A DNA stretch of 64,000 nt from Nitrosarchaeum sp. GTDB taxonomy: Archaea; Thermoproteota; Nitrososphaeria; Nitrososphaerales; Nitrosopumilaceae. Below the pieces are notes generated by a model that had not been told where the DNA came from, did no database searches, and saw nothing but the letters and a program-made list of their open reading frames with translations. Where the stretch lies: positions 1 through 64,000 of the forward strand of contig JAIOOR010000024.1 in assembly GCA_021414365.1 (NCBI GenBank), read 5' to 3'. Position 1 is the first letter of the stretch. Every line of letters starts with the position of its first letter. Positions 54,245-62,680 of this stretch are shown here, piece by piece. A program made the translations under genes and the position numbers.

Positions 54245-54547
54245 ATGGCTTGGAAGAAAATTGCAGAAAAAGGTGACATCGCAGATGGAAAAGGCAAGGC
54301 CTATAAAATTGATGGAAAACAAATTGCAATATTTAATCAAAATGGATATCATGCGTTAGATGATCTTTGTGTTCATCAAGATGGATCACTTGCACCAGGT
54401 AAACTTGATGGAGATATTGTAGAGTGTCCATTACATTTTTGGCATTACAACATCAAATCAGGAGAACTGAAAGACTATCTCTAGGAGGTAAAATTAGCAA
54501 CGTATCGTGTTGAAGCTAGAAATGATGGTATTTACGTAGACGTCTAA
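54245..54547 (+). pseudogene. Rieske [2Fe-2S] ferredoxin with in-frame TAG near the 3' end
   Basis: The frame runs 79 residues (CxH at Cys42/His44 and CxxH at Cys61/His64, in LCVHQDGSLAPG and ECPLHFWHYNI, both cluster sites intact) to a TAG at 54482-54484. The same frame then continues EVKLATYRVEARNDGIYVDV to a TAA at 54547. That tail is the final beta strand pair normally closing Rieske ferredoxins, so a complete protein would have 100 residues. Options are a nonsense mutation, amber readthrough, a sequence error, or a functional short form. GGAGG directly follows the TAG but no good start codon follows it. Small soluble Rieske proteins serve as electron carriers. Confidence 0.8.
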
Positions 54548-54650
54548 ATTTTAAGATTAGAATTTAAGAGCTTGAATATACAATTAGAAAATTAAACTAC
54601 GAATGGATAAATTTTCTATATAGAAAAAACACAAAATTATGTAATAATAC

Positions 54651-54658
54651 TTATAAAT
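54651..54658 (+). promoter_or_regulatory. TATA box of the Lys-rich coiled-coil gene
   Basis: TTATAAAT about 31 nt upstream of the ATG at 54685 but only 6 nt before the earlier ATG at 54664. This favours 54685 as the true start. Confidence 0.5.
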
Positions 54659-54684
54659 CTAAAATGGTTTCTGGAGTGGATATG

Positions 54685-55023
54685 ACAGATATTGCATTTA
54701 AAGAAACCAAAAGCCAAGAAATATCTAAAATAAAAGAGGCAAAAAAAAGACTAGATGAAGCTAAGAGCGCATATAAAAAAGTCAAAGAAGATGTAAAGAA
54801 AAAACTAAAACAAATTAAAAAAGACAAACGTGCAAAAATCAAAGAAAATAAGAAATTAAAAAAATTGGCAGCAAAACAAAACAAAGAAGAGTTAGAAAAA
54901 AAAATTAAAGAAACAAAAAATGAAATCAAATTGGCAAAAATAGCTGCTAAAAATGAGGCAAAAACTAAGATTAAAAATGCAAAATCAAAATTAAAAGAGA
55001 TTAAGAAAATATCTAAAAACTAA
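54685..55023 (+). CDS. lysine-rich coiled-coil protein
   Basis: 112 aa from the TATA-supported ATG (MTDIAFKETKSQEISKIKEA). Almost entirely Lys/Glu/Ala/Leu/Ile with about one third Lys: a long, highly basic helix or coiled coil. No domain name. Its stop overlaps the convergent stop of the CHAD gene by 4 nt (CTAA). Next to CHAD, Ppx and SixA genes, a basic protein of this type could bind polyphosphate or DNA; that is inference from charge and context. Confidence 0.7.
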   Translation, partial: TDIAFKETKSQEISKIKEAKKRLDEAKSAYKKVKEDVKKKLKQIKKDKRAKIKENKKLKKLAAKQNKEELEKKIKETKNEIKLAKIAAKNEAKTKIKNAKSKLKEIKKISKN

Positions 55024-55808
55024 CCATTTGTAGATAGAAGTGAATTGTGTTGAACCAATTTTTTAAAATTAGCATCTCTAGATTCTTTTTCAAGCAATAT
55101 TAGTGGTTTTAAAGAATTGAATTTATCAATTTTTTTCTGAAAAAATAAAATGGTCATATCATTATCATGAATGTCACCAAGGAGATCCTGTAGTTGTTTA
55201 AGATCTTTCAAAATTTGTGAGATAGAATCCTCGGGTAAAAATTCTAATAGATAACGTAATTTTTTAACAGTTTTTCTCATGGAGTGAAGTTCTTTAATTT
55301 TAGTTTGATCTTGTATAATTATAGGAAAATTCGTTTGAATTTCTAAAATAAGTTCAAGGCATTTTTCGGTAAAGAACATGTTGATCTCATCAATAAAATT
55401 AAATTCTGAAATAGTTGGGACTTCTAATGTTAAAAGCAAAGAAGATTGGTTTAGAACGTCGATAATCTTTTTTTCTCTTTGTTTTTTTAGATATTGAATG
55501 AACGTAAGTTCGGAAAACCCATAAAAAGAAATCTTCTCAGATAAAATATCATAATCTCTAATTATACTACTGGATTTGAATAAAAGTTGATATTGTTTTA
55601 CAAATTTTTTAATTTTCTTTTTTTTTAGATATTTTGATAAAATTTTATAAATTGTGGTCATTCTACGAATTGAAGTCCTAAGATCATGTATGTTATCAAC
55701 TGAGGGGTCATTAACACAAACAGATAATCGGTGATGAGATTTTTTCATATGTTCTAAAAACATTTGAAAAAAAGAAGCATTGAGGGAACTAATGTGAATT
55801 ATTGTCAT
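55020..55808 (-). CDS. CHAD domain protein
   Basis: 262 aa. It is an all-helical protein with the conserved His-containing blocks of CHAD: FLEHMKKSHHRLSVCVNDPS, NIHDLRTSIRRMTTIYKI, RDYDIL and RKTVKKLRYLLEFLPED followed by LQDLLGDIHDNDMTILFF. CHAD domains bind polyphosphate through clustered Arg/Lys/His. It ends a minus-strand set with two kinase-like genes (4 nt overlap upstream), Ppx/GppA and SixA, all fitting polyphosphate metabolism. Confidence 0.9.
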   Translation of the reverse strand: MTIIHISSLNASFFQMFLEHMKKSHHRLSVCVNDPSVDNIHDLRTSIRRMTTIYKILSKYLKKKKIKKFVKQYQLLFKSSSIIRDYDILSEKISFYGFSELTFIQYLKKQREKKIIDVLNQSSLLLTLEVPTISEFNFIDEINMFFTEKCLELILEIQTNFPIIIQDQTKIKELHSMRKTVKKLRYLLEFLPEDSISQILKDLKQLQDLLGDIHDNDMTILFFQKKIDKFNSLKPLILLEKESRDANFKKLVQHNSLLSTNG

Positions 55809-56536
55809 TTTTTGAGAAAACCACGAATGTGATTTTGAAGAACTTGATTTACATCAAGTATGGATTTATTTCCATCTATTGTGATAAGATCGTATTGTTT
55901 CTTTAAACGAGCAAATTCATCTGCCATTTTACTTTGGTAAATTAAAAATGATTCATACATATCATCAGATAATCCCAGATCTGCACCAGATTCATAATAA
56001 TCTAAAGACATTCGTTTTTCAAATACTCTGTGAACTAATTTAGTTGGATTTACATTCAAATAAAAAACTAAATCAGGCACTAGAGCAAAACTGTATAGAT
56101 CATTAGACCATTTTCTTTTTAGTCCTCTAACATTGTTTCTTGCAATTAATGTGTAGATGTATCTGTCTGCAAGTACAACATATCCAGATTGTAATGCAGG
56201 AATAATCTTATGTTCTAATTGATCAGCAAAATCTGCAGCATAAAAAAGAGCCAATGTTTTCTTTCCTAATGAAACATTTCGTTTAGCTTCAAGAATCCCT
56301 TCGCCAATAAGATCTGAACGTTTGAGACCAGTATTAAGAACAGCAAATCCATCTGCTTCAAGTCGTGATGTCAACATTTCAATCTGAGTACTTCGTCCAG
56401 AACCATCAGGCCCTTCAACTACAATTAATCTACCACTGATTTCAAGATCTTTCAAATAAGGAATTCCTACATGAGAGTTACCAGCATACCATATTGGTGA
56501 TCTTTTTTGTATTGATTTAGAAGTTTTAGAGTTCAT
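55805..56536 (-). CDS. thymidylate kinase-like protein with altered P-loop
   Basis: 243 aa. P-loop kinase of the dTMP kinase family: VVEGPDGSGRSTQIEMLTSR (about residues 37-56), ADRYIYTLIARNNVRG and a C-terminal lid with YYESGADLGLSDDMYESFLI. The Walker A lysine is replaced by arginine (GSGRST), which usually reduces catalysis. It is longer than standard dTMP kinases (about 205-215). The neighbouring gene (2 nt upstream) is a paralogue with an intact P-loop, so a heterodimer is possible. Might act on dTMP, or, given context, on a polyphosphate-linked nucleotide reaction (PPK2 is a distant relative). Confidence 0.85.
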   Translation of the reverse strand: MNSKTSKSIQKRSPIWYAGNSHVGIPYLKDLEISGRLIVVEGPDGSGRSTQIEMLTSRLEADGFAVLNTGLKRSDLIGEGILEAKRNVSLGKKTLALFYAADFADQLEHKIIPALQSGYVVLADRYIYTLIARNNVRGLKRKWSNDLYSFALVPDLVFYLNVNPTKLVHRVFEKRMSLDYYESGADLGLSDDMYESFLIYQSKMADEFARLKKQYDLITIDGNKSILDVNQVLQNHIRGFLKK

Positions 56537-56538
56537 TA

Positions 56539-57234
56539 TTATGTCTCCTTAACGACTTTTGCTAATTTTTTGGTAAGAAGTTTCATTACTTTTTCACGCA
56601 TGATTGATTGTTGTTCCTGTATTCCTAATGAAGCGTCGATTATTGTGAAGTGTTCCTTTTTACTCATGGCGTCATATTGTGAAATTATTTTTGATTGGAA
56701 AATGCGATAGCTCTCATACACATCTTTGCTCAAATCTAGATCCATTCCAGCTTCATAGTATTTCAGTTTAGGACGACCAGAAAGAATTCTGTCAATTGCA
56801 ACATCTATGGGGGTTTTAAAATAAAATGCAATGTCAGGTTTTAGCGCAAAATCATATACTTTTCGTACCCATTTGTAATTACAGCCTCTAGTAACATCTC
56901 TAGCATATGCAGTGTATACGTATCTATCTGCAAGAACAAAGTATCCGGCTCTTAGCAGAGGAAGAATATTTCTTTCAAATCTGTCAGCAAAATCTGTTGC
57001 ATGCAATAAGCTAAATGTGGTAGGTGTTAGATTTCCTTTCTTTTTTCCTTTTGAAGTGATTTCTTTTACCAGTTCAGATGAATTCCATTCAGTTCTAAAA
57101 ACATCTATTTTGTTAAATTTTAGCCATTTTTCCAATAAGCTTAGTTGCGTAGATTTTCCTGAACCATCTATTCCCTCTACAACTATCAGCTTTCCAGATT
57201 TACCATGTATTTTGAGATTTTTTTTAGAATTCAT
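56539..57234 (-). CDS. thymidylate kinase-like protein
   Basis: 231 aa. Walker A VVEGIDGSGKSTQLSLLEKW (about residues 17-36), ADRYVYTAYARDVTRG, and FKTPIDVAIDRILSGRPKLK then YYEAGMDLDLSKDVYESYRI as lid region. All typical catalytic residues of TMP-kinase-like enzymes are present. It likely phosphorylates dTMP to dTDP, but it stands in a polyphosphate-type cluster as tandem copy with the Arg-variant gene. First gene of the three-gene set with its paralogue and CHAD. Confidence 0.88.
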   Translation of the reverse strand: MNSKKNLKIHGKSGKLIVVEGIDGSGKSTQLSLLEKWLKFNKIDVFRTEWNSSELVKEITSKGKKKGNLTPTTFSLLHATDFADRFERNILPLLRAGYFVLADRYVYTAYARDVTRGCNYKWVRKVYDFALKPDIAFYFKTPIDVAIDRILSGRPKLKYYEAGMDLDLSKDVYESYRIFQSKIISQYDAMSKKEHFTIIDASLGIQEQQSIMREKVMKLLTKKLAKVVKET

Positions 57235-57302
57235 AGATACACAGAGTAAAAACAGACAGAGATATCTATAATTTTACTATATTGTTTACGTATGTGAGGA
57301 GT

Positions 57303-58859
57303 TTAGAGAACACTAATCAAATTTAGTGTACGGTTAAATGATGATTGATAATAGACATCGGATTGTACATGAATATCTAAAGTAGTTTCAAGTTTTTCAC
57401 ATGCTTGTTTGAAAAGCACTTCTGGGAATGCGTTGTTTTTTGGATAAATCTTCAAAATTAAATTAAAATTTTCATAGGATGAAGTTACAATTGCCTGAGT
57501 TTTGAGAAATATGTAACATAAAGATATGATAGAAGAAATTTTACGGATAATTTTTTTATCATTTTTTTCTAATAGAATTTTGTATTTCAAAATCAAAGAC
57601 TCTGATTTTTTTTTCTTTTTTGAATAAATTAGTGAGAGTGCAACGATTAATTGTTCTCTATGAGATAAAGAACTGTCATCGTCCATAACTGCATAAAGAA
57701 TATTGTCTACGTCTCTAAATGATGAAAGTATGTCAATTTTAGAAATAGATTGAGAGAGTAGAATTCTCTCCTTTTCTGAAATTAATGTTATTGAAAATAA
57801 CAAACTTGTAAAATCTTCAACATATTTAGACAGATGCTCAGACTGAGTTGAAAGATTAATTATGTCATGAATTTGCGGTAAGCTGATTTCGATGTCATTG
57901 AAAAACTCATCAGGGTATTGCATAGATACGAATAATGTTCCTTCACGTAATCCATGTGCACTTACTAAAAGTTCAGTTAATTCCAATTTCTTCATTAATT
58001 CTGAAATTACACATGCTCCAGCTTGAACAGTGTCAGATCTTCCGCTTCCGATTGATTCAATCTGAGAGATTTGCTGAAAATCATAGGACATTAATCGTTG
58101 AGCAATTTGATTAACAGATTCTGAAGAGATCGGATAGTTATGAATTTTCTTTAATGGATAGTTTTTCAATTCTTGATCATATTTTGCAATACTTCGAAGT
58201 GTTCCACCAACCCCAATTATTGGAATTTGGGTTTCAAGTATTTTCAATTCTTCTTTAGAAGGCAATGATTGTGTTATGTATTGAGACATTTTGTAATAAT
58301 GGTTATTTGAAAAATTTCCTTTTTTGCTTGCAAATAATTGTGATAGTCTAAGGGAGCCAAAGGGTAAAGAAATAATTGTTTTTATTTTGTAATTAGAGGC
58401 ATAAACTATTTCTAAACTTCCACCTCCAAGATCAAAGAAAATAGCAGATTGGATTTTCAATGATCTAATCGCTCCAATATAAGAATAGAGTGCTTCTTGG
58501 GTTTCAGATAAAATTTTGAATTTAAATCCTGTTTCTCTCTGAATTTTATCGAGTAATTCGACATTATTTTTTGCATCACGTACAACACTAGTTGCAATAC
58601 ATATCACATAATCAATTTGCTCAAAATCCACAATATTTCTAAATAATTTCATAGTTTCAATTGTTTTTTCTACATATTTTTCCTGAATAATACCATCTTC
58701 CAAGCCTTCAGCTAATTTTACTCGAACGGATTCCTGATGATATGGTTTGTAGGTATTATCAATTCCAATATTATAATTAACTAGTTTAACTGAATTAGAA
58801 CCAAGATCTATCACTGCAGCTTTTCTTGTATTTATGATATTTTTTGTAATTGGGATCAA
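57303..58859 (-). CDS. Ppx/GppA family exopolyphosphatase
   Basis: 518 aa, TTG start. ASKHA-fold motifs: AAVIDLGSNSVKLVNY (phosphate 1), FFDLGGGSLEIVYA (phosphate 2) and GVGGTLRSIAKY (adenosine-type motif), with catalytic Glu in EVQEAL-like SETQEALYSYIG. The C-terminal ~200 residues are a helical HD-like region, as in longer Ppx proteins. It would cut terminal phosphates from polyphosphate or pppGpp. It is flanked by CHAD/kinase genes and SixA on the same strand. Confidence 0.92.
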   Translation of the reverse strand: MIPITKNIINTRKAAVIDLGSNSVKLVNYNIGIDNTYKPYHQESVRVKLAEGLEDGIIQEKYVEKTIETMKLFRNIVDFEQIDYVICIATSVVRDAKNNVELLDKIQRETGFKFKILSETQEALYSYIGAIRSLKIQSAIFFDLGGGSLEIVYASNYKIKTIISLPFGSLRLSQLFASKKGNFSNNHYYKMSQYITQSLPSKEELKILETQIPIIGVGGTLRSIAKYDQELKNYPLKKIHNYPISSESVNQIAQRLMSYDFQQISQIESIGSGRSDTVQAGACVISELMKKLELTELLVSAHGLREGTLFVSMQYPDEFFNDIEISLPQIHDIINLSTQSEHLSKYVEDFTSLLFSITLISEKERILLSQSISKIDILSSFRDVDNILYAVMDDDSSLSHREQLIVALSLIYSKKKKKSESLILKYKILLEKNDKKIIRKISSIISLCYIFLKTQAIVTSSYENFNLILKIYPKNNAFPEVLFKQACEKLETTLDIHVQSDVYYQSSFNRTLNLISVL

Positions 58860-58918
58860 GCTTTCGTTTTCTTAAATGAAAATGTCCAATTTATCAAATC
58901 CATATTAAAAAAAATTAT

Positions 58919-59419
58919 CTAATTGCATAGTTTTTTCATCTGTTTGGGGGTCATCAAACTTTTCAATGTTCCATGTAATGCAGATCTATCCGAGAAAAGT
59001 TCAATATGGGCAAAGCCTCCTTTTTTTAATAATATACAGATTTTTGAAGAATCAGAAATAATACTTCCAATTAAGTTACTAAGATTGGGCTCATGTCCTA
59101 CAAGCATCATAGATGAAAAATTTAGAGATCGTATCTTTTTTTTTATTTGTTCTATAGGAATTTCAGGTTTTAATTCATCCCAAATCAAAAAGTGTTTTTT
59201 TTGTTTTAGCAAGTCTTTTGATAAAATATTGGCGGTTTGCTTTGATCTGTTTAATGGGCTTGAGATAAGATAATCAATTTTTACATCTAGTCCCTTTAAT
59301 GATTTTGAAATGATTTCAATTTCTTTTATACCGTATTCTGTAAGATTTCTTTTAGAATCACTAGTGACTGAAGATGTTCTCTCTTCAGCTTTGCCATGCC
59401 TGAATAAGTACAAATCCAT
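58919..59419 (-). CDS. SixA-like phosphohistidine phosphatase
   Basis: 166 aa from the ATG before DLYLFRHGKAEERTSS; an earlier in-frame ATG (59500) would add 27 residues without domain support. Histidine phosphatase superfamily: LYLFRHGKAE (RHG with catalytic His) at residues 4-13, LISSPLNRSKQTANIL, and the second His in MLVGHEPNLSNLIGSI. Compact branch as in SixA. It may dephosphorylate phosphohistidine proteins or small phosphoesters. Last gene upstream in the minus-strand polyphosphate-type set. Confidence 0.9.
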   Translation of the reverse strand: MDLYLFRHGKAEERTSSVTSDSKRNLTEYGIKEIEIISKSLKGLDVKIDYLISSPLNRSKQTANILSKDLLKQKKHFLIWDELKPEIPIEQIKKKIRSLNFSSMMLVGHEPNLSNLIGSIISDSSKICILLKKGGFAHIELFSDRSALHGTLKSLMTPKQMKKLCN

Positions 59420-59569
59420 ATTTTCTATAAGCGATGATTTGTATAAAAATAGATTATGTAGATTATAATATTCACATACACTATATAGAATATGGAGCAT
59501 ATAATATGATAATTAGCAATATGGTATTCACGATGTGTTTGTTTAATATTCAAAACACAAAGCAACATC

Positions 59570-59707
59570 ATGACAGAATACACGTATTTAAAACAAACTT
59601 ATTATCTTCGAATATTTCAAATCGATGAGATGATTGCAATAATAAAACAAGTTGCATTTGAATCTAGAAAAAAGAATTCAATCAAAAAGAATTTGAAGCG
59701 ACATTAA
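59570..59707 (+). CDS. candidate 45 aa basic small protein
   Basis: Small ORF beginning MTEYTYLKQTYYLRIFQIDE and ending with a Lys/Arg-rich tail (SRKKNSIKKNLKRH). A TTTAATATT stretch about 25 nt upstream could be a TATA element for a leaderless message. No cysteines and no recognisable family. It lies in the otherwise gene-free stretch between SixA and nadE; may be spurious. Confidence 0.3.
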   Translation: MTEYTYLKQTYYLRIFQIDEMIAIIKQVAFESRKKNSIKKNLKRH

Positions 59708-59876
59708 AAAAATTAATTAATATATTTTTAACAACATAATGAAAAATTAGGCATGACAAATAAAATTTAAAATTGTTTTATTTTCCTATATAGTTAACAG
59801 AAAATCGTAATTCAAGTACACCATTGTAAATTAAAGACTAGTTATTTTTATTGCAGTTTTTATCATTTCAAGTGGG
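59708..59876. other. AT-rich intergenic sequence
   Basis: Very AT-rich, no ORF or RNA gene seen. A TTATTTTTATTG stretch (about 59842-59853) could serve as promoter element for the zinc miniprotein that follows. Confidence 0.35.
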
Positions 59877-59975
59877 ATGCACATAATCTTCTCCTGTGGA
59901 TGTAAAATTCAAGATCGTGATGGAACACTTGTAAAATCATGTATTTTCCACAGGGAAGGAAATTTTATCAATTAA
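59877..59975 (+). CDS. 32 aa zinc-binding miniprotein candidate
   Basis: Small ORF with MHIIFSCGCKIQDRDGTLVK followed by SCIFHREGNFIN. Cys7-x-Cys9 and Cys22-x2-His25 make a plausible four-ligand zinc site around a DRDGT turn. The pattern (CGC ... C..H) is of the type I expect from tiny thaumarchaeal zinc proteins. GTGGG directly precedes the ATG. Monocistronic, 100 nt upstream of nadE. Confidence 0.5.
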   Translation: MHIIFSCGCKIQDRDGTLVKSCIFHREGNFIN

Positions 59976-60075
59976 ATTTCATTAAAAATTGTGTCATGCC
60001 AGTCAATTCAGGCATTAAAGATATGAAAATTATATTTGGCACAACTTTTATTCTGACGTTTTTCAAAAGGATCTA

Positions 60076-62341: not shown

Positions 62342-62578
62342 TTGACAAAAATAAAATCATTCATGAATGCATGGAGTAAATTTTGGAAATGGTATGAAAA
62401 CAAAATATTGGGAAGTATAATTATAATTGCCATAATCCAGTTTATCCAAATTCCACACATGGTATGGAATGCAGATTTGATGCTACAAGCAGGAATGATA
62501 TCAAGAATAAATCAGGGGATAGACGGGTTATTGTATGGAGTTGACTTGATTGAAATTGTATCAATTATCAATGTGTGA
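62342..62578 (+). CDS. small single-helix membrane protein
   Basis: 78 aa with TTG start, or 71 aa from the ATG at 62363 (MNAWSKFWKWYENKILGSII). One clear hydrophobic helix (ILGSIIIIAIIQFIQIPHMV) lies after an aromatic-basic start; the C-terminal half is amphipathic (MISRINQGIDGLLYGVDLIE). No family recognised. It follows cysS by 77 nt on the same strand. It probably sits in the cytoplasmic membrane. Confidence 0.6.
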   Translation: MTKIKSFMNAWSKFWKWYENKILGSIIIIAIIQFIQIPHMVWNADLMLQAGMISRINQGIDGLLYGVDLIEIVSIINV

Positions 62579-62680
62579 ATGATCATGTTTAGTTTAATTA
62601 AAAAAGAAGAACAAAGCAAGTCATAAGCAGTACAAAATAAGATAACGCCGGTACAAATAGAAGAAGAAAGACAGCCAAGC

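Follow-up and report, generated by a model that had tools for sequence, protein, structure and literature searches.

The window analysed here is a 64,000-nucleotide stretch of contig C24, taken from a 1.875-Mb draft genome of Nitrosarchaeum sp. that is assembled in 26 contigs and is 99.86% complete. It contains a gene for a Rieske-type [2Fe-2S] ferredoxin in which a TAG codon interrupts the frame before the ancestral end of the gene. This raises the question of whether the protein is really cut short at this point. The original prediction had listed a recent nonsense mutation, a read error, programmed readthrough and a tolerated truncation as possible answers, and chose none of them.

The interrupted gene and its orthologues

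Translation of the frame gave 79 residues, the TAG, 20 further codons and a TAA at 54545-54547 (Table 1). Both cluster motifs, C42-V-H44 and C61-P-L-H64, lie 5' of the TAG, and the 79-residue product alone matched the Rieske domain PF00355 with an E-value of 2.4e-16. These results confirm the position and nature of the stop as first described, an in-frame TAG past both cluster-binding motifs of a Rieske ferredoxin. With its C-x-H and C-x-x-H ligand motifs and its Rieske domain, the gene belongs with the Rieske [2Fe-2S] ferredoxins. The product that it encodes does not contain the complete domain, as it ends at residue 79 and the strands at residues 89-92 and 95-99 come after the TAG. The gene is a member of the Rieske family by descent, and its product as encoded is incomplete.

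Table 1. Positions of the ferredoxin gene and its parts within the 64,000-nucleotide window.
Feature	Position	Strand	Basis
Rieske-type [2Fe-2S] ferredoxin gene, through the internal stop to the ancestral TAA	54245..54547	+	PF00355 at residues 3-87; ungapped genus and family orthologues; fold shared with solved ferredoxins of dioxygenases
Open part of the gene, 79 codons and TAG, both cluster motifs included	54245..54484	+	Translation
Premature TAG, codon 80; AAA or AAG (Lys) in every other orthologue read	54482..54484	+	Translation and orthologue comparison
Conserved continuation, 20 codons and TAA; residues 89-92 and 95-99 predicted as the last two beta-strands	54485..54547	+	Orthologue alignment and model

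When the frame was read through the TAG, its 100 residues aligned without a gap to full-length orthologues, with 81-90% identity within the genus, and residues 81-100 closely matched those of the orthologues. Therefore, the continuation after the TAG is not due to chance, and the 20 codons that precede the TAA appear to encode the normal C-terminal strands, as had been proposed. The closest proteins among named relatives are those of Nitrosarchaeum and Nitrosopumilus. In the 88 other distinct sequences of orthologues, codon 80 was without exception a lysine codon (AAA in 77, AAG in 11), indicating that the TAG is a private change.

Of 17 further genomes from the genus, 16 have the gene (15 full length, one partial hit), and we found an orthologue in 217 of 250 genomes of the family, including 128 of the 131 of good quality. 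Among the itemised family matches, which stop short of the lowest-scoring ones, an internal stop was present in the window's own genome only. Orthologues that all end at this point would have changed the interpretation of the locus; none of those read does, and the observation stands. A natural early terminus was rejected, as every orthologue read was full length. The stop is thus absent from close relatives of a gene that was previously under constraint, which is the pattern of a lineage-specific nonsense allele.

An AlphaFold2 model in which the TAG was taken as lysine (mean pLDDT 81.9) placed strands 89-92 and 95-99 beyond the stop. This model superposed over its whole length on solved dioxygenase ferredoxins with a TM of about 0.85, and several of the solved sequences align up to residue 98 or 99. 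Judging from the model, loss of the last two beta-strands should destabilise the Rieske domain. If the truncation were tolerated, the 79-residue ferredoxin would still bind its cluster and work, as could be argued from a short product that retains all four cluster ligands and scores as a Rieske domain. However, the final two strands are conserved in every orthologue read, they belong to the predicted fold as well as to the solved one, and no orthologue ends early. We consider it unlikely that the short protein works.

Upstream of the ferredoxin gene lies a divergent S-adenosylhomocysteine hydrolase gene. Similarity to four congeners ends at the ferredoxin TAA and resumes 5' of an NAD synthase gene; the block directly 3' of the TAA (about 54550-60030) has no counterpart at that place in these four genomes. 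It encodes a Lys-rich protein, a CHAD domain protein, two thymidylate-kinase-like proteins, a Ppx/GppA phosphatase and a SixA-like histidine phosphatase, and looks like a polyphosphate-related island. This block lies beyond the ancestral TAA and does not explain the TAG. No copy of the ferredoxin was found in viral contigs.

Decoding of the TAG codon

Readthrough would mean that a near-cognate or unknown tRNA decodes UAG, giving some full-length ferredoxin. It would account for the conserved region that follows the TAG, in which differences are mostly synonymous, and readthrough of in-frame stops has been argued to be frequent in prokaryotes (Belinky et al. 2021, PMC7918605). However, this conservation is explained equally well by a recent mutation or an error, and the TAG is not conserved among orthologues. 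Furthermore, according to a 2021 review of archaeal recoding, stop readthrough has been demonstrated in archaea for selenocysteine and pyrrolysine only (PMC8211752).

A profile search of the genome revealed no pyrrolysyl-tRNA synthetase (PylS) at curated cut-offs: the best score for TIGR02367 was 29 bits against a cut-off of 178, and TIGR03912 gave no match, with a positive Methanosarcina control. No tRNA with a CUA anticodon occurred among the tRNA genes called in this draft genome, intron-containing genes included. When CUA loops followed by a T arm were sought by pattern, all matches fell in the D arm or variable arm of ordinary tRNAs or in sequence without a tRNA call. Separately, one Rfam tRNA hit (L194) was not called by ARAGORN. 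Pyrrolysine decoding was rejected, as neither the synthetase nor the tRNA was found, and both results argue against readthrough in general. We also observed that TAG terminates 98 of 385 conserved genes of this genome. TAG is therefore an ordinary terminator here, closing a quarter of the genes, which led us to reject its genome-wide reassignment and also weighs against its readthrough in the ferredoxin gene.

Folding of the RNA downstream of the TAG was no better than that of shuffled sequences (z 0.64 and 0.65), giving no sign of a readthrough signal based on RNA structure. Neither of these two marks of programmed readthrough was found, the stop being replaced by lysine in 88 of 88 sequences elsewhere and the downstream RNA lacking stimulatory structure. 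Readthrough thus appears quite improbable. More improbable still is a regulatory form of it, in which a near-cognate tRNA partially reads a real TAG and amber readthrough thereby controls how much of this core electron-transfer protein is made, in a Nitrosarchaeum that lacks pyrrolysine.

Recent mutation or sequence error

Compared with its counterpart in the congener G001, the ferredoxin gene showed a dS of 0.92 and a dN of 0.055, hence an omega (dN/dS) of about 0.06, near the genome median of 0.077 calculated over 395 orthologous genes. Against L006, the region after the stop displayed 8 synonymous and 2 non-synonymous base differences. In a five-genome comparison, this genome held 6 of the 12 private residues in the ferredoxin, versus 37% of private residues over 35 genes, an excess that is not significant (P 0.26). 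A wider comparison within the genus gave eight private residues for this genome's ferredoxin, the highest count of 15 and followed by six, making a slight relaxation of selection possible. An old pseudogene was rejected on the basis of the near-median omega and the lack of significant acceleration. Judging from these substitution patterns, the gene looked to be under constraint until recently, and the constraint data fit a recent stop, an unreal stop or a stop that is read through equally well.

The TAG is two bases away from AAA, the codon 80 of the genus members read, and codon 81 is also altered, from GAT (14 of 14 genus members) to GAG. The simplest path to the TAG would be a silent change of AAA to AAG followed by AAG to TAG, and this two-base difference somewhat lowers the likelihood of a pure error. 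The changes in codons 80 and 81 also create a Shine-Dalgarno-like AGGAGGT that overlaps the stop (54482-54490); no start codon lies at a suitable distance after it. Downstream reinitiation was rejected, as the stretch from the TAG to the TAA holds no ATG, GTG or TTG in frame.

If the TAG arose in sequencing or assembly, codon 80 would in truth be AAG or AAA, the ferredoxin would be full length and there would be no biological event. The strong conservation of the gene, without sign of decay, and the draft state of the genome (26 contigs) speak for an error, as does a second private nonsense codon on the same contig. This codon, a TGA at 62576-62578, is found about 8 kb from the ferredoxin TAG, in a small protein gene (62366-62626, plus strand) that has 94 codons in relatives. 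The four congeners carrying that gene have it intact, with a glycine at this site, and about 10 C-terminal residues after the TGA are still conserved. When the contig was compared between five genomes, two private internal stops were counted here; the 80-kb counterparts gave none in three of the other genomes and 1 in the fourth. Two further contigs, covered over 400 kb, showed no nonsense codon of similar clarity, and the candidates left there lay near the 5' ends of ORFs. One of these, C9:137423 (in L202), is a possible third private stop close to the 5' end of an ORF that has 356 codons in G001, and it may be upstream of the true start.

Furthermore, an SRP-GTPase gene on contig C9, presumably ftsY judging from its sequence, has a frame break at about 64183 (L199), inside a 12-bp tandem repeat (PEPKPEPK...), after which the C-terminal part is read in a different frame. 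Since a gene of this kind should be essential, the break is probably an assembly error, or possibly a variable repeat; an assembly error would mean that the assembly is not error-free. However, the error rate is not high, as several hundred genes were compared and gave only two clear cases of a private nonsense codon and a single frame break, and AAG must have evolved first for a single error to convert the genus AAA into TAG. Widespread error or decay was rejected, the internal stops reported by tblastn being mostly opposite-strand ORFs or over-long 5' ends. A sequence error at codon 80 is a serious possibility to which we give well under an even chance.

We favour, by slightly more than an even chance, a genuine, recent and lineage-specific nonsense mutation that cuts the protein short and probably leaves it without function. 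Codon 80 of this core gene, an invariant lysine codon, would first have become AAG by a synonymous change, and one A-to-T change would then have turned AAG into TAG. Translation would end at residue 79, giving a product that keeps the cluster ligands without the last two beta-strands and that should be unstable or work poorly. This would make the gene a pseudogene in its early stages or a null allele still segregating, and its loss could be tolerated through other Rieske proteins encoded elsewhere in the genome, in which we found three other Rieske-domain matches.

As far as the comparisons go, several points argue for the nonsense mutation: the stop is private, the 88 other sequences having lysine and the other itemised family matches showing no stop; the two-base change at codon 80 together with the altered codon 81 is more than one random base-call error produces; the lost strands belong to the solved fold; and constraint without significant acceleration is what a recent loss would be expected to leave. 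Against it, the second private nonsense codon and the C9 frame break bring error into play, and the retention of the ferredoxin by 128 of 131 good-quality family genomes suggests a cost to losing it. In bacteria, in-frame stops that are short-lived and exist as population polymorphisms have been described (PMC7918605).

Of the four options left side by side in the original prediction, the recent nonsense mutation is therefore the best supported and a read error stays in contention as the less probable of the two; programmed readthrough is unsupported, and the structure makes a tolerated truncation unlikely. The weights that we attach to these readings are a matter of judgement and were not computed. 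If the TAG is real, a ferredoxin kept by nearly all good-quality genomes of the family can be shortened in one lineage, hinting at redundancy with other Rieske proteins. Should it be an error, it is a warning that reads or strains are needed before a single stop in a draft archaeal genome is taken as recoding. The finding is an ordinary one of little overall importance, and nothing that we found suggests a new genetic trick.

Comparison with known systems

Genes of methanogens in which UAG is decoded as pyrrolysine share with this locus an in-frame UAG in an archaeal gene, here in place of a lysine. In contrast to those genes, the ferredoxin is not a methyltransferase, its UAG is not conserved, and PylS and a CUA-anticodon tRNA were not found. 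The Rieske-type ferredoxins of aromatic dioxygenase and monooxygenase systems (toluene dioxygenase ferredoxin, 3DQY/4EMJ; BphF, 1FQT; BphA3, 2E4P) have in common with it the domain, a length of about 100 residues, the C-x-H and C-x-x-H motifs and the fold (TM about 0.85). However, the gene in the window is interrupted at residue 80, identity in the fold comparison is only about 26-31%, and dioxygenase genes were not seen next to it among the ORFs examined. Although the ferredoxin TAG is known from one assembly only, it shares with the lineage-specific nonsense alleles and young pseudogenes of prokaryotes (PMC7918605) a single in-frame stop, conserved flanks and prior purifying selection.
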